Shown here piece by piece: positions 5,826 through 22,750 of a stretch of DNA of 23,009 nt (the first letter of the stretch is position 1; every line of letters starts with the position of its first letter). The stretch lies in the IMG/VR virus record IMGVR_UViG_3300006738_000095, positions 1 to 23,009 of that record; one strand, 5' to 3'. The notes under the pieces are model-generated. The model searched no databases. It saw only the letters and a list, made by a program, of their open reading frames with translations, and had not been told where the DNA came from. Position numbers and translations under genes: made by a program. The DNA comes from a virus.

Positions 5826-5854
5826 TTGTCTGACAAAAGTCAGACCGCTATGAT
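5826..5854 (+). promoter_or_regulatory. Rightward early promoter (sigma70-like)
   Basis: TTGTCT (5826-5831) and TATGAT (5849-5854) are exactly 17 bases apart. Transcription would start near 5861, so the AGGAGG ribosome binding site (5862-5867) for the GTG at 5874 is again almost at the 5' end. The 18-bp palindrome covers part of the -35 box and the spacer, so a bound repressor would block this promoter. It drives the Cro-like, initiator and helicase genes. Confidence 0.65.
5828..5845. promoter_or_regulatory. Operator palindrome in the divergent control region
   Basis: GTCTGAC-AAAA-GTCAGAC is a perfect two-fold symmetric site with seven-base arms. It lies inside the rightward promoter and next to the -35 box of the leftward one. 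The gene directly downstream encodes a Cro-like helix-turn-helix protein, the obvious candidate to bind it and repress its own synthesis. A degenerate copy of the core occurs at 14875-14886. Confidence 0.65.
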
Positions 5855-5873
5855 CGCGACCAGGAGGTGCTTT

Positions 5874-6131
5874 GTGGACGAAAAAAGTTATACCGGAACC
5901 AGACTTTTGCGTGATTGGATCGCAAAGGAGAATCTGACAAGAAAGGACGCCTCAGACCGACTGAACTCTGGGCTTCCGACCCTAGACTCTTGGCTTCAGG
6001 GTCACCGAAGGCCTGGGCTCGCCGCAGCTCAGGTCATCGAGGCCGCAACGAGCGGCTTTGTGAAGGCAAACGACTGGCTTACCGAAGAGGAGGTGGCCTC
6101 AGTCCGCCTCGCCACGCACAGCTCGACCTGA
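5874..6131 (+). CDS. Cro-like helix-turn-helix regulator
   Basis: I choose GTG 5874 because AGGAGG sits six bases upstream; the in-frame TTG at 5826 would lie inside the predicted promoter. The 85-residue protein has a Cro/YdaS-type fold: a helix (TRLLRDWIAKENL), then a helix-turn-helix (about 21-47: TRKDASDRL-NSGLPTLDSWLQG), followed by an IEAATSG...DWL segment typical of Cro-like proteins. It probably binds the palindrome just upstream, controlling its own operon and perhaps the divergent recombination operon. Its TGA is one base before the GTG of the replication initiator. Confidence 0.7.
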   Translation: MDEKSYTGTRLLRDWIAKENLTRKDASDRLNSGLPTLDSWLQGHRRPGLAAAQVIEAATSGFVKANDWLTEEEVASVRLATHSST

Positions 6132-9005: not shown

Positions 9006-9341
9006 TCACCCCCCTTGCCCAACCACTACGCCATACCGCTCAAGGATGGCCCTCTCCTTGTGGCTGGGTATCCCCCTCTTTGTCCTGGCCTCCCAGACGG
9101 CCTGAACGGAGACGCCAAGCTCCTCAGCAAGCACAACGTCTGGCACTATCCCGAGCTTCCCCCCGTAGTCCTTTCTCTTGACTCCCGGGGTGAGCCCGAC
9201 TCCGAATCTCTTCAGGGTTGCCCTGGCGGTTACGACGTGGATTCCCCACTTCTTCGCTAGCCCTTCGGTGCTTCCGAGCTGTTCAAAGTCAGCGAGAAAC
9301 TCGCTTTTCCTTTCGTCCGGAACGGCTCTTTGTCTTCCCAT
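9006..9341 (-). CDS. Double helix-turn-helix protein
   Basis: The start is placed at ATG 9341, preceded by AAGGAGAG; longer versions run deep into the methyltransferase gene, which it already overlaps by 53 bases. The 111-residue product has two HTH-like units: GSTEGLAKKWGIHVVTARATLK (about residues 22-43) and PDVVLAEELGVSVQAVWEAR (about 64-83, ending in RGIPS). The second matches the D..LA..LGVS...V...R..RGIP pattern of homeodomain-like phage regulators. It may control the surrounding operon or assist DNA modification; both are inference. Confidence 0.6.
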   Translation of the reverse strand: MGRQRAVPDERKSEFLADFEQLGSTEGLAKKWGIHVVTARATLKRFGVGLTPGVKRKDYGGKLGIVPDVVLAEELGVSVQAVWEARTKRGIPSHKERAILERYGVVVGQGG

Positions 9342-10401
9342 GACTGCTCTCCTTTTCTGAGTTGATGATTTGCTCTGCAATTCGTTGCGCCATGACTGGC
9401 GTGACGCTGTTTCCAATTTGTCTGTACTGGCTCGCCTTCGTTCCTTTGAACGGGTAGTTCGGCGGGTAGTCCATCAGGGTGGCGCACTCTTCAGTTGTTA
9501 GCCGACGTCGCTCGTCCGCAGGACCGTCGACCCAGGGCCCTGCGTTGCCGATACGAACCGCAGGGATGGTGGTACACGGCTCGTCCGTCAGGTCTCGATA
9601 GTTCCTCTTGTGTGCGACCTCTGCGGACTGCGGGTTTCTTCCGCCTCCGATCACTCGAAGCATCTGGTTGCCTTTGCCTCCGATGGTTGGAGCGGGCTCG
9701 TCTGTGCTGGCTGGTCGCTCCTGCCTGGGGTTGTTGTTCGAGTTGCGGCTGCCGCTGAGCTCGCCTGTCAGGCCTAGCGCCTCTCCAACCGTGTTCCACG
9801 GAAGAAGGTGTCCGTTGAAGAGCTCCGTCTTGTCGGGGTCTCCGTGGGTTGGGCGCGGCCAATTGATGTGGCGTGGTCCAGCGACGATGTAGACCCTTCG
9901 TCTGTGCTGGGGAACCCCAAAGCTCGAGGAGTTCAGGACGGCCCAGCCAACCCAGGCGAACCTCTTCCTCAGGTCGCCAAGGATCACCTCGTTGAAGTAG
10001 GCGTTTGGGCATAGCTCTTTCCCGACGCAGTGCCGCCCCTGCTTGCAGGCACCCTTGTGGTTGGTGAGTCCCAACACATTCTCTCCGACGAACCAGGTGG
10101 TCTCGGTAAAGTCGATGGCTTCGACTGTCCAGGGCCACCCGTTCCGCCCGTCTTGCGCCCCTTTCCTTTTGCCTGCAGTTGACCATGCCTGACACGGGAA
10201 AGACGCCCACAGGAGGTCTGGGACGGCCTCCTCGTACAGAGACAGGTCTCTGACGTCTGCCTGGAGCGCAGGGAGCCCAGCAGCTCTTAGAGTGGCGCAG
10301 GCGTCCTTGTCCTTCTCAATGCAGGCGATGTGGTGTAGCCCAGCTGCCTTGAGGCCGATGGCGGCCCCACCAGCTCCAGCAAATAGCTCAAGCACCTTCA
10401 T
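9289..10401 (-). CDS. C5 cytosine DNA methyltransferase
   Basis: The 370-residue protein carries the conserved C5-methyltransferase motifs in order: I (LFAGAGGAAIGL, 6-17, AdoMet binding), IV (SFPCQAWSTAG, catalytic C70), VI (ENV, 107-109), VIII (QHRRRVYIV, 165-173), a variable target-recognition part (about 185-310) and X (RQIGNSVTPVMA near 336-347). It transfers a methyl group from AdoMet to cytosine in an unknown target site. No restriction endonuclease is visible, so protection of the phage genome from host restriction is the likely role. AAGGAGAAG precedes the ATG at 10401. The basic C-terminal tail overlaps the next gene. Confidence 0.9.
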   Translation of the reverse strand: MKVLELFAGAGGAAIGLKAAGLHHIACIEKDKDACATLRAAGLPALQADVRDLSLYEEAVPDLLWASFPCQAWSTAGKRKGAQDGRNGWPWTVEAIDFTETTWFVGENVLGLTNHKGACKQGRHCVGKELCPNAYFNEVILGDLRKRFAWVGWAVLNSSSFGVPQHRRRVYIVAGPRHINWPRPTHGDPDKTELFNGHLLPWNTVGEALGLTGELSGSRNSNNNPRQERPASTDEPAPTIGGKGNQMLRVIGGGRNPQSAEVAHKRNYRDLTDEPCTTIPAVRIGNAGPWVDGPADERRRLTTEECATLMDYPPNYPFKGTKASQYRQIGNSVTPVMAQRIAEQIINSEKESSHGKTKSRSGRKEKRVSR

Positions 10402-10430
10402 CTTTCTTCTCCTTCTCTTTTGTGGCGCAC

Positions 10431-10718
10431 TTACTCGTCCTCGTCATCCACCTCAAACCAATCCCAATCGCTCGCGGACATCGTTGGATGCGGTATGTGT
10501 TCGTAGTCGAACTCGTGGGCGATATGTTTGATGTTGTTTGCGTCCATGACGTACGAGTTGGGGCCAACCAAGCTCTCTCCGAATTCGGCAAACACCCCGT
10601 GCTCGCATGAATCAAGCAAATGCTCGAGCGCCTTGTCGAACCTTTCCCCTTCGACCTCGTAGGTGACCCACACGTAGTGCTTTGCTTTGATCCGAAACCT
10701 CTTAACCTCGTTGTTCAT
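10431..10718 (-). CDS. Small acidic protein, paralogue of the 11850-12116 product
   Basis: The ATG at 10718 overlaps the Mom-like stop (ATGA) and is preceded by GGAGAAGGAAG. The 95-residue product shares a pattern with the gene at 11850-12116: (V/I)TY-V-x5-F-ALE-L in the N-terminal half, then GP-x-(S/D)-YVM, I and HE. A strongly acidic end (SDWDWFEVDDEDE) is specific to this copy and suggests nucleic-acid mimicry or protein binding, by inference. The two paralogues flank the Mom-like gene. Confidence 0.65.
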   Translation of the reverse strand: MNNEVKRFRIKAKHYVWVTYEVEGERFDKALEHLLDSCEHGVFAEFGESLVGPNSYVMDANNIKHIAHEFDYEHIPHPTMSASDWDWFEVDDEDE

Positions 10719-11533
10719 CTTCCTTCTCCTTCCCATCCAGCCTTCGGGTAGCCGAGCTGGCTTTTGGTTTGCACACCTTTGTCCAGTGTCCAGATGTAGA
10801 CATGGTTTCCCGGGTGCCTGACCTTCCTGAGAAGGCCATCGTTCGTAAGTCGAGACACGTACGAGACTCCGTTCTCGCCGTGCCGAATTGTTGGGGCTCC
10901 GCACCTAACGAGGGACCTGTAGGCCCCGTCGCCTCCGCGCTCGCCCTGACGTATCTTCGAGAGCGCCCTTCTGCTGACGAACTCCCCGTTAGGGGCAAAG
11001 TGGTGGGTGGACCTACCGGACCTACCCAGATACTTGCCGTTGTAGGCCTGGTAGATCGTTCCAATGTGCCCTGGCTTTACCAACCCATCGGGCGTTGTTC
11101 TCGGGATTGGATCTGCGTAAGAGAGGACAGCCTTCAGCTCTGGAGCGGACTTCCTTAGGAGCTTGAAGGCTCTAGAGAGGAACCAGGTCTCCCCGTTTGC
11201 CGGCACGTCGTCCAGGAGAACAAACCTGCCGAGCTCCACGCCCTCTGAGGGGTCTAGGTTGGGTGCGTAGCAGGGTATGGTTCGTATTTGGCATGGGACG
11301 CTGAAGACAGCGACACCCACAAGCCCGTCTCCGGCTCGATAGAGACCCATCCTCCGCCTAGCTGGCGGATACGAAGCACTGTAGTGGTGGGTGCAGACGA
11401 ACGACTTTGCGTCCATCTCCGGCATCTCCTCCACCCCGTACTTAGATGTGTCTATCGGCTCTCCCTTCGGCCTGTAGGAGGTTCTGTGCTGTCGCCACCG
11501 CTGACACATTCTCCGCACCCGCCTGGTGCCCAT
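10715..11533 (-). CDS. Mom-like GNAT-fold DNA adenine modification protein
   Basis: The 272-residue protein carries the pattern of phage Mu Mom-family proteins: HHYS (49-52), LVGVAVFSVP (71-80), ELGRFVLLDDVPANGETWFLSRAF (100-123), LSYADP (137-142) and GHIGTIYQAYN-x2-Y-x-G (155-170). Mu Mom converts adenine in DNA to a carbamoylmethyl form that blocks many restriction enzymes; the family is a divergent GNAT fold. The C-terminal extension beyond about residue 200 may aid DNA binding. The start overlaps the upstream stop (TGATG, 11531-11535; a GTG one codon earlier is possible) and the end overlaps the next gene by ATGA. It lies near the cytosine methyltransferase in the same operon, consistent with a genome-protection module. 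Confidence 0.7.
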   Translation of the reverse strand: MGTRRVRRMCQRWRQHRTSYRPKGEPIDTSKYGVEEMPEMDAKSFVCTHHYSASYPPARRRMGLYRAGDGLVGVAVFSVPCQIRTIPCYAPNLDPSEGVELGRFVLLDDVPANGETWFLSRAFKLLRKSAPELKAVLSYADPIPRTTPDGLVKPGHIGTIYQAYNGKYLGRSGRSTHHFAPNGEFVSRRALSKIRQGERGGDGAYRSLVRCGAPTIRHGENGVSYVSRLTNDGLLRKVRHPGNHVYIWTLDKGVQTKSQLGYPKAGWEGEGR

Positions 11534-11853
11534 CACTCACCCCCCATCTCGGCGGCGAAGGCGGCGGCTATAGCTGTCTGCTCGACGGCTTTGAGCCGGC
11601 CCCACCAGTGCGCGGCTTTGTCGTCGTTGTTCAGGTCAAGGCGCCCAGCGGGCTCCTCGACCGTTCCGTTGTCTCCATCACCTCCTCGCGGAGTGGGGTT
11701 GGTGGCGCCGCACTTGATGTTCCAGAGCCGCGTGTAGAGCTTGTCTGGGTTGCCGTAGTCGGCGGGCAGATGGCGGTGACAGGAGAGGCACTCAGCCACC
11801 TCGTCAGCGGTCCAGAACTCCAGGCCAGCAGGCATCGTTACGTTGGCGCTCAT
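11533..11853 (-). CDS. Cys-containing small protein upstream of the Mom-like gene
   Basis: The 106-residue product starts at ATG 11853, overlapping the previous stop by ATGA, with GGAAGGGGGGG upstream. It has a CLSCH motif (about 23-27) and a third Cys at about residue 48 in a WNIKCG context, perhaps a metal site, and an Ala-rich helical end. Its stop overlaps the Mom-like start. In phage Mu a small zinc protein, Com, is encoded in the same position and activates mom translation; similarity here is positional only and the sequence does not establish it. Confidence 0.55.
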   Translation of the reverse strand: MSANVTMPAGLEFWTADEVAECLSCHRHLPADYGNPDKLYTRLWNIKCGATNPTPRGGDGDNGTVEEPAGRLDLNNDDKAAHWWGRLKAVEQTAIAAAFAAEMGGE

Positions 11854-13000: not shown

Positions 13001-13252
13001 TTAGTTTTGGGTTAGCTCGTAGGCGCGACTGACGAGAGACATCCAGTCATCCTCGTGGTCGTACCTGGCATAGACGGGGGCCCAGTCGTCGCTCCATGGG
13101 CTCAGCCCAGACTCGCGCACCTCCTTGAGCAGGATGTCTGCAACGGCGGAGGTCAAGGCGTGAAAGCCCTCGCTTCCTATCAGGGGCGACAGCCACTCCT
13201 CTACGTTGTGTCTGGACGTGAATCGTAGGGGCCTTGTGTTGTCGTCAATCAT
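13001..13252 (-). CDS. Small protein of unknown function
   Basis: The ATG at 13252 overlaps the preceding stop (ATGA) with AAGGAGAGAG before it, so I prefer it to a longer in-frame version inside the upstream gene. The 83-residue product contains HNVEEWLSPL and a Trp-rich region (SPWSDDWAPVYARYDHEDDWMSL). I recognise no domain. Confidence 0.6.
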   Translation of the reverse strand: MIDDNTRPLRFTSRHNVEEWLSPLIGSEGFHALTSAVADILLKEVRESGLSPWSDDWAPVYARYDHEDDWMSLVSRAYELTQN

Positions 13253-13530
13253 CTCTCTCCTTGCTGGTCTTCCATGAGCCACTCCATGGGGAGCCGGCTT
13301 TGGCCCAGTGTTTTGTCGCTCTCGTAGTTTCTTTCGGCTAACCGGATTACCCATTCGGGGCTTACGCCAGTCGACTCCGAGAGGTGCAACAGGTTGGTGA
13401 TTAGGTCCGGTATGGACTCCGAGTTTGGGATGCTTTCTATGTGGAACTCCGGGTATGCGAGGTCCTTGTGGGCGTGCAGAACCTCTTCCGCGTTTTCTAT
13501 GGCGACCCTTAGCCGCCCCTTGTTGATCAT
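13249..13530 (-). CDS. Small helical acidic protein, unknown
   Basis: The ATG at 13530 overlaps the previous stop by ATGA and is preceded by GAAGGAG. The 93-residue product is mostly helical, with AIENAEEVLHAHKDL and SPEWVIRLAERNYE segments. It is in a chain of three genes joined by four-base overlaps (13991 to 13001). No function is evident. Confidence 0.6.
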   Translation of the reverse strand: MINKGRLRVAIENAEEVLHAHKDLAYPEFHIESIPNSESIPDLITNLLHLSESTGVSPEWVIRLAERNYESDKTLGQSRLPMEWLMEDQQGER

Positions 13531-13991
13531 GGTTGCTCCTTCTTTGCCTTGGCCTTGATGTGGGTCACGTTGCCGTAGCCACGGCGTCGCCACTTGAGGA
13601 ACCGATTCTCATCTTCGATTGCGCTCCACTCCGCCGCAGTCTTTTTGTCGGTTTCGTCGTACTGGCTCCAGGGCCCCCAACTACTGATGTCGTGAAAGCC
13701 GTAGTCTGGGCGAAAGAGGACGAGGATCGCCTGGTCGCCCCGAGAGGCGTTCATGCTGTCCCGCATCCTCTCAAAGGAGTTAACCATCGCCGTGTTGTAC
13801 CCAAGGGTCTTTGGGTCCGACCCAACGTGAAGACGGGCGGGCTCCGCTACCTCCCCGCTGTGCCACAGATACACCAAGCCCCGTCGGTCGACCTCTATGC
13901 CGTCGGCAGAGCGGGTCATGTGGGCGGCTTCGTATCTGCGGGAAAGCTCCAGTCTCCCCTTCCTTCCAAATCCAATTGGCAGCTTGCTCAT
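13527..13991 (-). CDS. Protein of unknown function next to GP88 gene
   Basis: The start is ATG 13991, with AAAGGAGG just upstream, in a 16-base gap after the GP88-family gene. The 154-residue product has alternating strands and charged turns (GRLELSRRYEAAHMT, GLVYLWHSGEVAE, ILVLFRPDYGFHDIS) and a basic C terminus (KWRRRGYGN...KAKAKKEQP). The Trp/Tyr-rich block around 115-140 (SSWGPWSQYDE) is distinctive. I recognise no family; co-occurrence with the GP88 gene may be functional. Confidence 0.6.
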   Translation of the reverse strand: MSKLPIGFGRKGRLELSRRYEAAHMTRSADGIEVDRRGLVYLWHSGEVAEPARLHVGSDPKTLGYNTAMVNSFERMRDSMNASRGDQAILVLFRPDYGFHDISSWGPWSQYDETDKKTAAEWSAIEDENRFLKWRRRGYGNVTHIKAKAKKEQP

Positions 13992-16843: not shown

Positions 16844-17146
16844 CTAGTACTCCTCTGGCAGCAGGAAGGTCGTTGCCGACCTGTTCCATTCGGTTATGAC
16901 CCACAGCTTGGTCCCGTCGTCGAGTTCGTAGACCGACATGATTCGCTCGTCCTGGTGTTCAGGCTTGAGTGACAGTCGCTGTATCTCAGCATCCTCGGGG
17001 TCCAGTGACCCCCAGTCTCCCGAGATGTGCCGCACCAACAGGCCAAACGAGCCCTTCTCGTTGCGCTCGAGGGCTTGGGTTGCGCCAGGGGTGGACACAA
17101 CCATCCCCGGTGTGAATAGCGTTCCTGTAATCGTTCCTTCACTCAT
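16844..17146 (-). CDS. Plasmid/phage conserved hypothetical (WVITEWNRS...LLPEEY)
   Basis: The 100-residue protein has the typical order of a widely distributed accessory family: PGMVVSTPGATQAL (13-26), a LLVRHISGDWGSLDPED segment (36-52), ERIMSVYEL (67-75) and the end KLWVITEWNRSATTFLLPEEY-like block. Members occur on plasmids, integrative elements and phages; no biochemical function is known to me. AAGGAGAAGAG precedes the ATG at 17146. Its presence supports a mobile-element origin for this region. Confidence 0.75.
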   Translation of the reverse strand: MSEGTITGTLFTPGMVVSTPGATQALERNEKGSFGLLVRHISGDWGSLDPEDAEIQRLSLKPEHQDERIMSVYELDDGTKLWVITEWNRSATTFLLPEEY

Positions 17147-19785: not shown

Positions 19786-20078
19786 GCTTCCTTCCTTTCC
19801 TTGTTGGGCAACCCGTCGGGAAACCTGCCCAAGATCTCTACAAGGCTCTTGGCTCCCTCGTGGTCGTATTCCGTTAGACGCTCGAGCTCTCCTCTCATGG
19901 CGAAGACCAGGACGGCACATACGCCAGCCCAGTGGTCGTCGCTCATCGTTATCGTTCGCTCCATCTCAGTCTTGGATGTCGAACCTACGGCGCACTCGTC
20001 GCACTCCGTTGGGTGTGTCGAGTAGTACTCGGTACCGCACCCTTGGCAGCGCTTGGATTCAGTTGAATCTCTAACCAC
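19782..20078 (-). CDS. Zinc-ribbon protein, 98 residues
   Basis: The frame starts at GTG 20078, with GGGGTGAGAG upstream; a later ATG would lose the zinc site. C11-x2-C14 and C26-x2-C29 form a compact zinc ribbon, followed by a helical region (DDHWAGVCAVLVFAMRGELERLTEYDHEGAKSL, in pieces). It may bind nucleic acid. The leader contains a TGACC-type palindrome. The stop overlaps the next gene by ATGA. Confidence 0.6.
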   Translation of the reverse strand: MVRDSTESKRCQGCGTEYYSTHPTECDECAVGSTSKTEMERTITMSDDHWAGVCAVLVFAMRGELERLTEYDHEGAKSLVEILGRFPDGLPNKERKEA

Positions 20079-20081
20079 CTC

Positions 20082-20264
20082 TCACCCCTTCCTTTCTTGA
20101 CCGCTTGTGGTCAGCGCCAAAACCTTCCTTTGACCACTGATGGTCAGAGGCTGGACGGACTTCCGACCCTTGTTGATACTCCGGCTCATCTGCCGGTAGA
20201 GACGGAGCTTCCGCCTCTTCTCCAGCCATCTTGAAATGTATTTCAAGTAACTCATCATTCTCAT
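20082..20264 (-). CDS. 60-residue basic peptide reading through repeats (doubtful)
   Basis: ATG 20264 overlaps the previous stop (ATGA), which favours translation. The product is strongly basic (SRWLEKRRKLRLYRQMSRSINKGRK) but its start is encoded by a CTTGAAAT palindrome (YLKYIS) and its end by two TGACC-type palindromes (LTISGQ, LTTSGQ). Real gene overlapping control elements, or chance frame behind a coupled start: the sequence does not decide. Confidence 0.4.
   Translation of the reverse strand: MRMMSYLKYISRWLEKRRKLRLYRQMSRSINKGRKSVQPLTISGQRKVLALTTSGQERKG
20098..20113. repeat. TGACC-type palindrome, copy 2
   Basis: TGACC-GCTTGT-GGTCA lies upstream of AAAGGAAGGGG of the zinc-ribbon gene that starts at 20078 (leftward). 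It is identical to copy 4 at 20286-20301. Confidence 0.65.
20131..20146. repeat. TGACC-type palindrome, copy 3, next to an orphan ribosome binding site
   Basis: TGACCA-CTGA-TGGTCA is perfectly symmetric and is followed in the leftward sense by AAGGAAGG but then by no start codon of a gene; copy 2 comes 17 bases later. It looks like the remnant of a leader whose gene has been lost. Confidence 0.6.
20230..20247. repeat. CTTGAAAT palindrome, copy 1
   Basis: CTTGAAAT-GT-ATTTCAAG, perfect eight-base arms, lies 17 bases inside the 20264 frame and encodes YLKYIS there. It is one of seven copies between 20,230 and 22,623. Confidence 0.75.
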
Positions 20265-20479
20265 CCGGCCTTTCCTTCCGCCTTTTGACCGCTTGTGGTC
20301 AGTTCAAGTTGGTTTATGGGGAACGGAACCCCAGTGAACACGTTCCAGTACGACCCGCAGTCCTCTCCCGTCACAGTTGGGACGAGGTAGGTCTGACGCC
20401 TTTCTGGCTTCATTAGGTATCGGGCACAGGTCCCCTTCAGGGGGCACTCCGCCCCGTCGCATGCCGCGTAGTCGGCCAT
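20261..20479 (-). CDS. Cys-containing conserved-type hypothetical, 72 residues
   Basis: The start is ATG 20479, with AAGGAAGGAGAGG upstream; longer frames run through the palindrome-bearing leader. The product has CDGAECPLKGTCARYL (C7, C12, C18) and a fourth Cys at 41, a probable metal site of the kind found in small phage proteins. The last residues (LTTSGQKAEGKAG) are encoded by a TGACC-type palindrome and the region before the next start, so the end of the gene doubles as a leader. Confidence 0.65.
   Translation of the reverse strand: MADYAACDGAECPLKGTCARYLMKPERRQTYLVPTVTGEDCGSYWNVFTGVPFPINQLELTTSGQKAEGKAG
20286..20301. repeat. TGACC-type palindrome, copy 4
   Basis: TGACC-GCTTGT-GGTCA, identical to copy 2, lies in the coding end of the 20479 gene and upstream of GGAAGG before the ATG at 20264 (leftward). 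Confidence 0.65.
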
Positions 20480-20518
20480 GTCGACCTCTCCTTCCTTGAA
20501 AATGGGCTTTCCATAGCA

Positions 20519-20538
20519 ACTTGAAATACGTTTCAAGT
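20519..20538. repeat. CTTGAAAT palindrome, copy 2
   Basis: ACTTGAAA-TACG-TTTCAAGT has perfect eight-base arms with one inner change compared with the consensus. It lies about 40 bases upstream of the ATG at 20479 (leftward) and is followed by AAGCCCATTTTCAAGGAAGG, a block shared with the next leader upstream. Confidence 0.75.
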
Positions 20539-20562
20539 GACCAGCCCGGGTGAACACAGTTG

Positions 20563-20588
20563 GCCCCACGAACCTCCGCCCGTGGGGC
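20563..20588. repeat. Eight-pair GC-rich hairpin after the 20783 gene
   Basis: GCCCCACG (20563-20570) and CGTGGGGC (20581-20588) form a perfect stem with a ten-base loop, ten bases past the stop of the 20598-20783 gene in the leftward direction. No U-run follows, so it may be a 3'-protecting hairpin or an inefficient terminator. Confidence 0.55.
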
Positions 20589-20597
20589 GCACTCTAC

Positions 20598-20783
20598 TCA
20601 CCTCTTATTGGGAGGCCGGTAGCGGATGGCGACGACCTGGTCGCCCTTCCGAATTTCCGTCCGGGTAGGCGGGTGATGCCTTCTCCTTGGCTTCTCCGCC
20701 GACGCTTTGAACCCTGCCTGTCTAAGCTCGTCCGCTAGGGTCGGGCTAGAAGGCATTGTTCGTACAAAATGAACACTTCCCAT
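20598..20783 (-). CDS. Small basic protein, 61 residues
   Basis: ATG 20783 follows AAAGGAAGGATGCA. The product has a helix (TLADELRQAGFKASAEK), a basic Pro/His-rich linker and a C-terminal strand pair (EIRKGDQVVAIRYRPP) like a small SH3/OB-type unit. Unknown function. Two CTTGAAAT palindromes lie in its leader. Confidence 0.6.
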   Translation of the reverse strand: MGSVHFVRTMPSSPTLADELRQAGFKASAEKPRRRHHPPTRTEIRKGDQVVAIRYRPPNKR

Positions 20784-20816
20784 TGCATCCTTCCTTTCTT
20801 GAAATGGGCTTTTCGA

Positions 20817-20840
20817 CTACTTGAAATACATTTCAAGTAG
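20817..20840. repeat. CTTGAAAT palindrome, copy 3
   Basis: The arms CTACTTGAAAT and ATTTCAAGTAG are perfect over 11 bases with AC between them. It lies 34 bases before the 20783 start codon in the leftward direction. In the leftward RNA the half CTTGAAATG could alternatively pair with CATTTCAAG just before the ribosome binding site. Confidence 0.8.
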
Positions 20841-20853
20841 CTCTTGTTCGACA

Positions 20854-20873
20854 ACTTGAAATACATTTCAAGT
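20854..20873. repeat. CTTGAAAT palindrome, copy 4
   Basis: ACTTGAAAT-AC-ATTTCAAGT, perfect nine-base arms, centred 35 bases from copy 3; the two form a tandem pair in the leader of the 20783 gene. Confidence 0.8.
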
Positions 20874-21026
20874 AACTCCCAGAAGGCGCAGCTCTCCCTG
20901 CCCCTCCATGGTGGAGCTCAATCCGCGTTCGGGGACCGCCCCCTTGAGTCCTTACTTTCCTGGACGTTGGCGGGGGTAGTCCCCTCCGGAGACCGCCCCT
21001 TGCAAGCTTGTCCGATGCCCTCCTTT
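20874..21026. other. Gene-free stretch with short GC repeats
   Basis: No convincing gene is seen here. Two similar blocks, GGGGACCGCCCCCTTG (about 20930) and GGAGACCGCCCCTTG (about 20991), flank a segment with GGCGGGGGTAGTCCCC. At the 3' end (21011-21026) lies TCCGATGCCCTCCTTT, identical to 21332-21347. It may be a long structured leader for the 20783 gene or the remains of a lost gene; a 13-codon frame in the leftward sense ends at the TGA inside palindrome copy 4. Confidence 0.4.
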
Positions 21027-21056
21027 GAGCCCGTGGGGGCTCGGGCCTTTCAGCCC
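21027..21056 (-). repeat. Duplicated 3' module, copy 1 (two stacked hairpins)
   Basis: In the leftward RNA a GAAA-loop hairpin (GGGCT-GAAA-GGCCC, 21056-21043) is directly followed by GAGCCC-CCAC-GGGCTC (21042-21027). The stop codon of the 21256 gene lies in the first hairpin. The second copy at 21348-21377 has the same architecture with compensatory base changes. Confidence 0.65.
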
Positions 21057-21256
21057 CTCAAATTCTCTTCCTCCTCGATAGCCCACTCTAGGTAGAACAT
21101 TGCGGTCTTGTGATTCCCGCGCTTTTCTTCCCAGATAGCCTCTCGGAGGTTTCTCTCGATGTTCCTTCTAGATGGCGGCGGCGGGACAACCCTAGAGTTT
21201 CGTCTAGCCAAAATGCTGTCGCCTCCATAGGACAGGCCATCAATCGTTCGCCTCAT
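21050..21256 (-). CDS. Small protein with acidic helix, 68 residues
   Basis: ATG 21256 has a strong AAAGGAGGT five bases upstream, but this site can pair with CCTCCTTTG in the leader. The product has a basic Pro-rich part (RRNSRVVPPPPSRRN) then a helical region (REAIWEEKRGNHKTAMFYLEWAIEEEENLRG, in pieces). No family was recognised. Its stop lies inside the following hairpin module. Confidence 0.65.
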   Translation of the reverse strand: MRRTIDGLSYGGDSILARRNSRVVPPPPSRRNIERNLREAIWEEKRGNHKTAMFYLEWAIEEEENLRG

Positions 21257-21261
21257 GGCGA

Positions 21262-21308
21262 CCTCCTTTGTTGTGTGGATTAGTTCACGGGTTCAAAGGA
21301 GGGCATCG
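21262..21308 (-). promoter_or_regulatory. Ribosome-binding-site/anti-site pair in the 21256 gene leader
   Basis: In the leftward RNA CCTCCTTTG, part of the arm at 21308-21294, is exactly complementary to CAAAGGAGG (21270-21262), the ribosome binding site. The same arm is also complementary over 15 bases to CAAAGGAGGGCATCG further upstream (21348-21334). The two pairings exclude each other: the long one frees the site, the short one hides it. Confidence 0.55.
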
Positions 21309-21312
21309 AACT

Positions 21313-21332
21313 ACTTGAAATGTATTTCAGGT
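21313..21332. repeat. CTTGAAAT palindrome, copy 5
   Basis: ACTTGAAAT-GT-ATTTCAGGT has one mismatch between arms. It sits at the centre of a larger inverted repeat (arms 21294-21308 and 21334-21348, perfect over 15 bases, extended imperfectly outward to about 20). Confidence 0.75.
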
Positions 21333-21347
21333 CCGATGCCCTCCTTT

Positions 21348-21377
21348 GGACCCACGGGGGTCCGGGCTTTTCAGCCC
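21348..21377 (-). repeat. Duplicated 3' module, copy 2 (two stacked hairpins)
   Basis: In the leftward RNA GGGCT-GAAA-AGCCC (21377-21364) is followed directly by GGACCC-CCGT-GGGTCC (21363-21348). Compared with copy 1, two base pairs of the second stem are exchanged on both sides and a G-U pair of the first is A-U here, so pairing is kept. It begins at the stop of the 21598 gene. Confidence 0.65.
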
Positions 21378-21598
21378 TACTCAATCCAACACCTTGAGGC
21401 CGCCTCCCTCGCCTCTGCAAATTGGAGCGGAGAGAGGAGTTCGCTCAGGGGGAAGTCCGGCTGTTCGTCACGGTAATGCTCAAGTTCAAGGCGAATCACT
21501 CCCCTGTAGGAATCGTCTCCCATGTCGTCGTATGGAGACTGGAGGTGGGCGATAATTGCCAAGTCTTTCGAGGTAACTCCGTTACAACCTAGTGCCAT
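21377..21598 (-). CDS. Small protein of unknown function, 73 residues
   Basis: ATG 21598 follows AAAGGAAGGACAGC. The product has a helix-turn pattern at the start (GVTSKDLAIIAHLQSPYDD), acidic residues in the middle (DDSYRGVIRLELEHYRDEQPDFPLSELL, in pieces) and ends REAASRCWIE. No family was recognised. Its ribosome binding site can pair with an upstream CCTTCCTTT, and its 3' end carries the duplicated hairpin module. Confidence 0.65.
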   Translation of the reverse strand: MALGCNGVTSKDLAIIAHLQSPYDDMGDDSYRGVIRLELEHYRDEQPDFPLSELLSPLQFAEAREAASRCWIE

Positions 21599-21603
21599 GC
21601 TGT

Positions 21604-21657
21604 CCTTCCTTTCTGCCCACTGGGGGCTCAGAATCCGTCCGTGGATTCAAAGGAAGG
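21604..21657 (-). promoter_or_regulatory. Ribosome-binding-site/anti-site pair in the 21598 gene leader
   Basis: CCTTCCTTT (21657-21649, leftward) is an exact complement of AAAGGAAGG (21612-21604), the ribosome binding site. Between them lie two more hairpins, GAATCC-ACGGAC-GGATTC and GCCC-CCAGT-GGGC. Compared with the 21256 leader both partners have changed (CCTCC/GGAGG versus CCTTCC/GGAAGG), keeping the match. Confidence 0.55.
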
Positions 21658-21666
21658 CATCGAACT

Positions 21667-21686
21667 ACTTGAAATGTATTTCAGGT
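21667..21686. repeat. CTTGAAAT palindrome, copy 6
   Basis: ACTTGAAAT-GT-ATTTCAGGT is identical to copy 5 and shares with it a longer 41-base block (21646-21686 versus 21292-21332) that differs at a single position. Confidence 0.75.
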
Positions 21687-21702
21687 TTCCCGTTCCATCC
21701 GG

Positions 21703-21759
21703 AGCCCGAAGGCTGGGGGTGGACCCCCGTCTACCGGGGGAGACTAGCTCCCCCGGTAG
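21703..21759 (-). terminator. Three-hairpin cluster after the 22579 gene
   Basis: Leftward from the stop of the 22579 gene: a 12-pair stem (CTACCGGGGGAG 21731-21742 with CTCCCCCGGTAG 21748-21759, five-base loop), then GGGGG/CCCCC (21715-21728) and AGCC-UUCG-GGCU (21703-21714), a classic C(UUCG)G tetraloop. No U-run follows, so it may protect or attenuate rather than end transcription outright. Confidence 0.55.
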
Positions 21760-21772
21760 CCCGGTTTCAGTG

Positions 21773-22579
21773 TTAGCCGTCCGTTCCGGTAGCCTTGACT
21801 TCCGGAGTTACGACGGATTCGAGTGACACGCTGTTCAGGAGGGAGGCAATAACCTTCCCCTTGTCCTTTGGGTCTTTCTTGTCCAGACCGCGCGCCTCGA
21901 TAATGGCGTAGATGGCCTCGACGTCCGCCTCTTGCATCTTGCAAGAGAAGGAAACGAACCCAGCCTTGCGGTCTTTCTTCGATTGCGCTTCCCGTTCCGC
22001 GTCTGCCGCTTGCTTGTCTTTCTGGTCTTGTAGTACTTGCTTGACGGTGACTCCCTCGCCCAAATAGACGTGGTAGCCAGCCTTGATTCCAGCAATTATT
22101 TCAACAGCCTTGACGACTCGCGGATCCGACTTGTTGGTAGGAATCGCTCGCATGCGGTCCGTCTTTGTACAGGTAAGACGGAGTGGAATGTCCGCAGCAG
22201 CAAGGTCAGACCGGAGTGTAGAGTCTTTCTTCCCCGGTCCCCGGGGGAGAAAGCGCCCCATTCCGCTCCGCTGGGCACCGTACTTGTAGTCTCCCTCTTC
22301 CCGCGAGGCGGCAAGGTAAAGACTGCACTGGACCAGCTGGCCGACAATCTCCATTGGCGTGGCCAAGTGAATAAAGACCCGGTCCATTGAGACGGCATCC
22401 TGAAATCCCGCGCTGTTGACCCATCGGTCACCGGAGAAATCGGCGGACGGATGGAGATAACAAGGGACGTCCGATTTGCTGCTAGTTTCGGTTTTTAGAC
22501 CGACACCAAATTGCAACCCAAGGGCTGCGATTGCAGATTCCAGTCCCGCGATAACTTCTGAGCGTTTACTGATAGGCAT
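21773..22579 (-). CDS. 268-residue protein of unknown function
   Basis: ATG 22579 follows AAAGGGA. The N-terminal half has strands and an aromatic-rich region (CYLHPSADFSGDRWVN, DRVFIHLATPMEIVGQL) and the segment GAQRSGMGRFLPRGPGKKDSTLRSDLAAADIPLRLTC, in pieces, Arg/Lys rich; the C-terminal half contains a charged coiled-coil (QVLQDQKDKQAADAEREAQ) and a helical end. It could be a phage structural or DNA-transaction protein; I recognise no family. It is the largest gene of the accessory block, preceded by an elaborate structured leader. Confidence 0.65.
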   Translation of the reverse strand: MPISKRSEVIAGLESAIAALGLQFGVGLKTETSSKSDVPCYLHPSADFSGDRWVNSAGFQDAVSMDRVFIHLATPMEIVGQLVQCSLYLAASREEGDYKYGAQRSGMGRFLPRGPGKKDSTLRSDLAAADIPLRLTCTKTDRMRAIPTNKSDPRVVKAVEIIAGIKAGYHVYLGEGVTVKQVLQDQKDKQAADAEREAQSKKDRKAGFVSFSCKMQEADVEAIYAIIEARGLDKKDPKDKGKVIASLLNSVSLESVVTPEVKATGTDG

Positions 22580-22599
22580 ATAAATTCCCTTTCAACCGT

Positions 22600-22623
22600 T
22601 CACTTGAAATCAATTTCAAGTGA
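22600..22623. repeat. CTTGAAAT palindrome, copy 7
   Basis: TCACTTGAAAT-CA-ATTTCAAGTGA has perfect 11-base arms and ends 21 bases before the start codon of the 22579 gene (leftward). The central dinucleotide differs from the other copies. Confidence 0.8.
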
Positions 22624-22708
22624 CTACAGGAGCAAAGCCCCAGTAGCCTAGTACCTACCGGCCCCAAGGGACCGATAGGCACGTAGCTACCAGCCGTCGG
22701 AACGGCTG
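22624..22708 (-). ncRNA. Structured leader RNA upstream of the 22579 gene
   Basis: Reading leftward: CAGCCGT-TCCG-ACGGCTG (22708-22691, seven pairs, tetraloop); GTGCCTATCGGTCCC (22682-22668) against GGGGCCGGTAGGTAC (22665-22651), up to 14 usable pairs of which three are G-U; and CTAC-GGGGC/GCTCC-GTAG (22646-22624) with a three-base loop. The G-U pairs would be A-C mismatches in a rightward RNA, so the structure is specific to the leftward transcript. Riboswitch, protein-binding leader or small RNA are all possible. Confidence 0.5.
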
Positions 22709-22750
22709 TTAGCAGTCGAAAGGGAAACCTAAAATTCCTTGGCGCTTCGT

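Follow-up and report, generated by a model that had tools for sequence, protein, structure and literature searches.

Predicted anti-Shine-Dalgarno elements in the leaders and complementary elements in the trailers of two adjacent small phage genes

In phage T4, the long early transcripts of genes e, soc, 49 and I-TevI fold the Shine-Dalgarno sequence (SD) into a helix that hides it (PMC3014915). The aapA toxin mRNAs form successive anti-SD pairings during transcription, and a final pairing between the 5' and 3' ends closes the SD (PMC6733600). In the icaR mRNA of Staphylococcus aureus, the 3'UTR pairs with the SD and represses (PMC3868564). Cluster K mycobacteriophages carry SD-associated repeats, SAS and ESAS, whose function is given as unknown in the extracts of PMC3203893 considered here. 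The phage locus described below appears, by analogy, to mix features of all four systems and to be a member of none.

The locus lies in a window of 23,009 nucleotides, the whole stretch of DNA analyzed (positions 1 to 23,009 of IMG/VR virus record IMGVR_UViG_3300006738_000095). It contains two small ORFs on the minus strand. Gene 21598 (21377-21598) encodes 73 amino acids and is the upstream neighbor of gene 21256 (21050-21256), which encodes 68 amino acids and starts with an ATG at 21256-21254. Codon usage in both ORFs is coding-like and resembles that of the remaining genes of this phage (scores of 0.27 and 0.24 bits per codon, against -0.26 with a standard deviation of 0.24 for random frames). 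Protein family searches gave no known-family match for either protein, and neither has a hydrophobic look when judged by eye.

The two genes have a common layout, palindrome, A', SD, ORF, two hairpins and A (repeat families D11 and D12), and the element is confined to them. All features are on the minus strand. Gene 21598 is preceded by a 20-bp palindrome at 21667-21686, one of seven copies of ACTTGAAANNNNTTTCAAGT and differing from it by one half-site change. The anti-SD element A' follows (CGATGCCTTCCTTTG, 21648-21662) and includes a 9-nt exact complement of the gene's own SD (AAAGGAAGG, 21604-21612). Behind the ORF are two hairpins at 21349-21378 (GGGCU-GAAA-AGCCC and GGACCC-CCGU-GGGUCC) and then A, the anti-anti-SD (CAAAGGAGGGCATCG, 21334-21348), which is both the trailer of gene 21598 and the upstream arm for gene 21256. 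A second 20-bp palindrome, at 21313-21332, separates this A from the A' of gene 21256 (CGATGCCCTCCTTTG, 21294-21308), and the SD of that gene (CAAAGGAGG, 21262-21270) lies five bases 5' of the ATG. In the trailer of gene 21256, two hairpins (21028-21057), the first of which overlaps the stop codon, are followed by another copy of A (21013-21027). The trailer hairpins begin at the stop codon in both genes, and by sequence a GAAA loop can close the first hairpin in both copies. The segment from A through the palindrome to A' is a single near-perfect 65-nt palindrome with the operator-like palindrome at its center.

A preliminary description of this DNA had reported A, A' and the SD in that order upstream of gene 21256, with A' able to pair perfectly with A over 15 bases or with the SD over 9. 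The three segments are present exactly there, on the minus strand and with the palindrome between A and A', and the two pairings are mutually exclusive. Absent from that description were the recurrences around the two neighboring genes, of A' at 21662-21648 and of A at 21027-21013. A can pair with A', as described, but it is not a private arm of gene 21256, since it forms the trailer of gene 21598 and has an equal copy after gene 21256. No A lies upstream of the A' of gene 21598, and what the two genes share is therefore an A' ahead of the SD and an A after the ORF. Where the two cassettes meet, the tail of one and the head of the next form the A-palindrome-A' hairpin. The observation is confirmed, and the earlier reading was right on the exclusive pairings and incomplete on the architecture.

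The arrangement is not random. With its flanks, the A/A' inverted repeat covers 23 nt at 91% identity, and when the 3-kb region was put through 60 dinucleotide shuffles, none contained a perfect 15-nt inverted repeat whose arms were 60 nt apart or closer. Shuffling each 100-nt leader 20,000 times gave a 9-nt exact SD complement 18 times for gene 21256 (chance about 0.001) and 38 times for gene 21598 (about 0.002). The A-palindrome-A' hairpin has a folding energy of -34.6 kcal/mol (z = -7.9), and none of 200 shuffles folded as well.

We computed the cost of opening each SD on transcripts with varied ends, using equilibrium folding predictions. This includes the RNA folding of the leader that the preliminary description had proposed as a check, in which the SD is closed with A' alone and open with A present. 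Leaders with A' alone give a predicted opening cost of about 8-11 kcal/mol, and the cost is 1-3.5 kcal/mol with A upstream or downstream, or without A'. For gene 21256, RNAs that start at the palindrome or at A' are predicted to be closed (10-11 kcal/mol for shorter RNAs, 6-9 for longer ones) and to open, at 2.4 kcal/mol, once they reach the trailer A. With a start upstream of A, the predicted cost is 1-3 kcal/mol (open) for nearly all lengths and 6.0 kcal/mol at one very short 3' end; RNAs starting downstream of A' are open as well. The leader of gene 21598 is closed at 5-9 kcal/mol until the trailer A is included, when the cost falls to 3.5 kcal/mol. By maximal opening cost the two genes rank as the top two among 38 leaders; they lose the top places when leader length is fixed at 100 nt, which brings A into the leader of gene 21256.

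As physics, the exclusive pairings are well supported by these folding models. The preliminary description went further and saw the logic of a translational switch. In the predictions the exclusive pairings do decide access to the SD, but not as a balanced two-state switch. An A upstream on the same transcript outcompetes the SD for A' (at least 18 bp against 9); it wins outright, so that the start and end of the transcript set the outcome. Translational availability may depend on where the mRNA begins and ends, as predicted from sequence and folding.

Leaders and trailers also match within each cassette. Among the 1849 combinations of 43 leaders with 43 trailers, the own-gene duplexes of the two cassettes come top, at -63.9 and -61.4 kcal/mol. 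The crossed duplexes reach -54.0 and -53.4 kcal/mol, which makes the own pairs 8-10 kcal/mol better. Two neighboring positions at which leader and trailer differ in concert (GTG in one leader with CAC in its trailer, ACG in the other with CGT) account for part of this gap. The third-ranked duplex, at -61.2 kcal/mol, belongs to gene 8981, which is unrelated and GC-rich, and the argument therefore rests on long uninterrupted complementarity and not on energy alone. We rejected gene 8981 as a further case, as its duplex is an interrupted, gapped GC-rich match and inverted repeats are absent.

Comparison of the internal copies revealed a few paired changes. The A' copies of the two genes differ by one base within an 18-nt core, and the variant base makes the A' of gene 21598 an exact complement of its own SD, just as the other A' is of CAAAGGAGG. 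This matched change is a single event and may be luck, with a rough estimate of a few per cent. In the second trailer hairpin, three positions have changes on both sides among the copies, and a sliding control has none. The support from this covariation is modest, because 27 of 500 shuffles reached its paired-change value and the comparison comprises four sequences alone. The leader copy of gene 21256 has lost the second trailer-type hairpin. Elsewhere in the phage, several SDs, at gene starts 16283, 17465, 17731, 18540, 20078 and 20264, closely follow a short perfect hairpin of one of two related types (GCCC..GGGC or TGACC..GGTCA; families D8 and D10). A general rule of a hairpin before the SD was rejected for this phage, in which folding energy is not enriched relative to random positions.

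The sole other contig covering the region is IMGVR_UViG_3300037586_003304, which is 99.7% identical over 11.2 kb; all the elements are unchanged in it, and the closest difference lies at 21715. A search with the helicase gave near-identical relatives (L142-L146), of which this contig is one and the only one to span the region. Searches of annotated phages, of viral contigs and of bacterial and archaeal genomes yielded no diverged relative. Annotated phages gave no DNA match to 20000-22700, the 268-aa neighbor protein had no match in phages or in bacterial and archaeal genomes, and the element itself had none in bacterial and archaeal genomes. In viral contigs, 104 stretches matched the 15-nt element; these were rejected as true copies, being chance-like except in the near-identical contig and having no well-matched inverted partner. 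A search of Rfam returned nothing above the gathering score, only two sub-threshold matches to eukaryotic microRNAs, both to the long hairpin. Substitutions relative to IMGVR_UViG_3300037586_003304 cluster in two short blocks (17069-17142 and 22683-22709), a pattern that suggests recombination in contigs otherwise almost identical in sequence. In the relative L143, small minus-strand genes have been swapped or lost with respect to the window, at 9489-9532, 10419-10733, 13002-13254, 13541-13984 and 15342.

The palindrome extends beyond the two cassettes. Its seven operator-like copies (20229-20248, 20519-20538, 20819-20838, 20854-20873, 21313-21332, 21667-21686 and 22602-22621) are limited to the last 2.8 kb and lie near minus-strand gene starts. 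In viral contigs outside this phage the palindrome is single-copy, and no multi-copy occurrence was found there. Extra half sites, CATTTCAAG and CATTTTCAAGG, occur at 20783-20810 and 20479-20510, immediately 5' of the SDs of genes 20783 and 20479, where competition with the palindrome's own stem is possible. A candidate binder of the palindrome is a 101-aa protein (5826-6131) with weak matches to phage transcriptional repressors. The phage also encodes a C5 cytosine methylase and a Mom-like DNA modification protein near each other (9289-10401 and 10715-11536). Integron attC sites or transposon ends were considered by eye and rejected, with matching core sites absent and no clear target duplication, and the proteins searched included no match to an integrase or transposase. 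No sigma-70-type promoter was found in the region beyond chance.

We propose, at somewhat below an even chance, that A' acts as an anti-SD in the 5' leaders and A as an anti-anti-SD in the trailers of the two genes, and that together they regulate translation. On an RNA whose 5' end falls between A and A', perhaps at the palindrome or shortly after it, A' would pair with the SD once both were made and would block ribosome binding. The A' bases outside the SD helix, 6-9 nt, could serve as a toehold. The trailer A, transcribed about 300 nt later, would then displace the SD from A', opening the site and making the full-length RNA translatable. On read-through RNA from gene 21598, the upstream A would capture A' first and the SD of gene 21256 would be open. 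Translation would thus be governed by transcript ends. The analysis shows the sequence arrangement, its departure from chance and the computed energies; that RNAs with the required ends are made, that the distant segments pair inside cells and that the regulation is selected are inferences, as would be any ligand or any promoter or operator role for the palindrome. A stricter version, which we consider unlikely, makes the trailer a licence for full-length mRNA. Each gene's own trailer A would strip the anti-SD from the leader by toehold strand exchange, such that only completed or read-through transcripts would be translated. In tandem cassettes the trailer of one gene would then be a constitutive opener of the next, and the 5'-3' pairing would be an activator.

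A biological switch is plausible but unproven, because the region has just one further known copy, 99.7% identical, and because A' resembles an inverted copy of a module consisting of a hairpin and an SD. The restriction of the element to two genes, the broken trailer-type hairpin in the leader of gene 21256 and the lack of a sigma-70-type promoter beyond chance also count against it. Recombination alone could therefore have made A', and complementarity to the SD would be expected without selection. This is the main rival to regulation by A and A', and we regard it as a serious, if doubtful, possibility. Template switching at the palindrome, or a tandem duplication combined with gene replacement, would have duplicated and inverted a hairpin-SD leader module, so that inverted repeats now flank two genes. 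As the element would contain an inverted SD, complementarity to the SD would follow, and it might lower translation without being a selected switch. The trailer, which reads hairpin-hairpin-AAAGGAGG, indeed resembles an SD module without a downstream gene, and the 65-nt A-palindrome-A' palindrome is the outcome expected of template switching. Near-identical relatives likewise have small minus-strand genes swapped or lost, with several breakpoints at SD, start or leader sequences. Recombination leaves unexplained, however, the fit of the core change in the A' of gene 21598 to its own SD and the better match of own than of crossed leaders and trailers, and the pairing of the trailer hairpin has been kept despite changes on both sides.

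We consider two other readings improbable. The 24-bp A-palindrome-A' hairpin on read-through RNA could be a target of RNase III, whose cut would part the two genes, with trailer hairpins shielding the 3' ends and SD pairing secondary. The predicted stem is the long intercistronic double-stranded stem expected of an RNase III site, a near-perfect duplex at -34.6 kcal/mol, and hairpins start at both stop codons. This long hairpin is present at one gene junction only, however, the other two having A' or A alone, and processing does not explain the match to the SD. The palindrome might instead be the DNA operator of a repressor with several sites in one leftward operon, like phage stoperators, and A and A' would be its passive flanks. 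All seven copies fall within 20229-22621 and lie close to gene starts or at them; their 8-bp half sites are conserved and their center varies, and one copy lies within the start of an ORF (20264-20082). A change in two of the copies makes a C-A mismatch in the minus-strand RNA stem and keeps the DNA site near-symmetric. An operator accounts for the palindrome but not for A, A' or the match to the SD, and this reading is compatible with the anti-SD and anti-anti-SD explanation and not opposed to it.

Regulation by A and A', as modeled, would be a variant of known control by SD sequestration and 5'-3' mRNA pairing, with the predicted sign of the 5'-3' pairing opposite to that in aapA and icaR. 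As in T4 (PMC3014915), an upstream complement is predicted to sequester the SD and the transcript start to set access. In T4 the longer transcript is closed, whereas here the longer, read-through transcript is predicted to be open; in the folding, gene 21256 is open from starts upstream of A and closed from starts at A', and not closed on long RNAs and open from an internal late start. A trailer copy that releases the SD, predicted here, is not described for the T4 genes in PMC3014915. Like the hok and aapA mRNAs (PMC6733600), the two cassettes would combine co-transcriptional anti-SD pairings with a long-distance 5'-3' pairing after the 3' end is made. That final pairing closes the SD in hok and aapA but is predicted to open it here, and from the sequence we recognized no toxin-like protein or antitoxin RNA at this locus. 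The resemblance to icaR (PMC3868564) is a 3'UTR-5'UTR pairing within one mRNA that affects SD access; there the 3'UTR pairs with the SD, whereas here the SD-like trailer A would pair with A' and not with the SD. SAS and ESAS, as presented in the extracts of PMC3203893, resemble the locus in being repeats that accompany the SD; they have 17-bp inverted repeats and precede only some of the non-structural phage genes. Those extracts describe no anti-SD or trailer copy for SAS/ESAS, and the 13-bp SAS sequence they give differs from the elements here.

The bacterial 5'-3' mRNA pairings compared here, in aapA and icaR, repress translation. If the elements are only a recombination scar, the locus would show that inverted leader modules can accidentally create strong SD occlusion. 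If the proposed regulation is true, the 3' end of an mRNA would activate translation, in two genes and with an anti-SD that tracks the SD, and engineered toehold switches would have an equivalent in nature.
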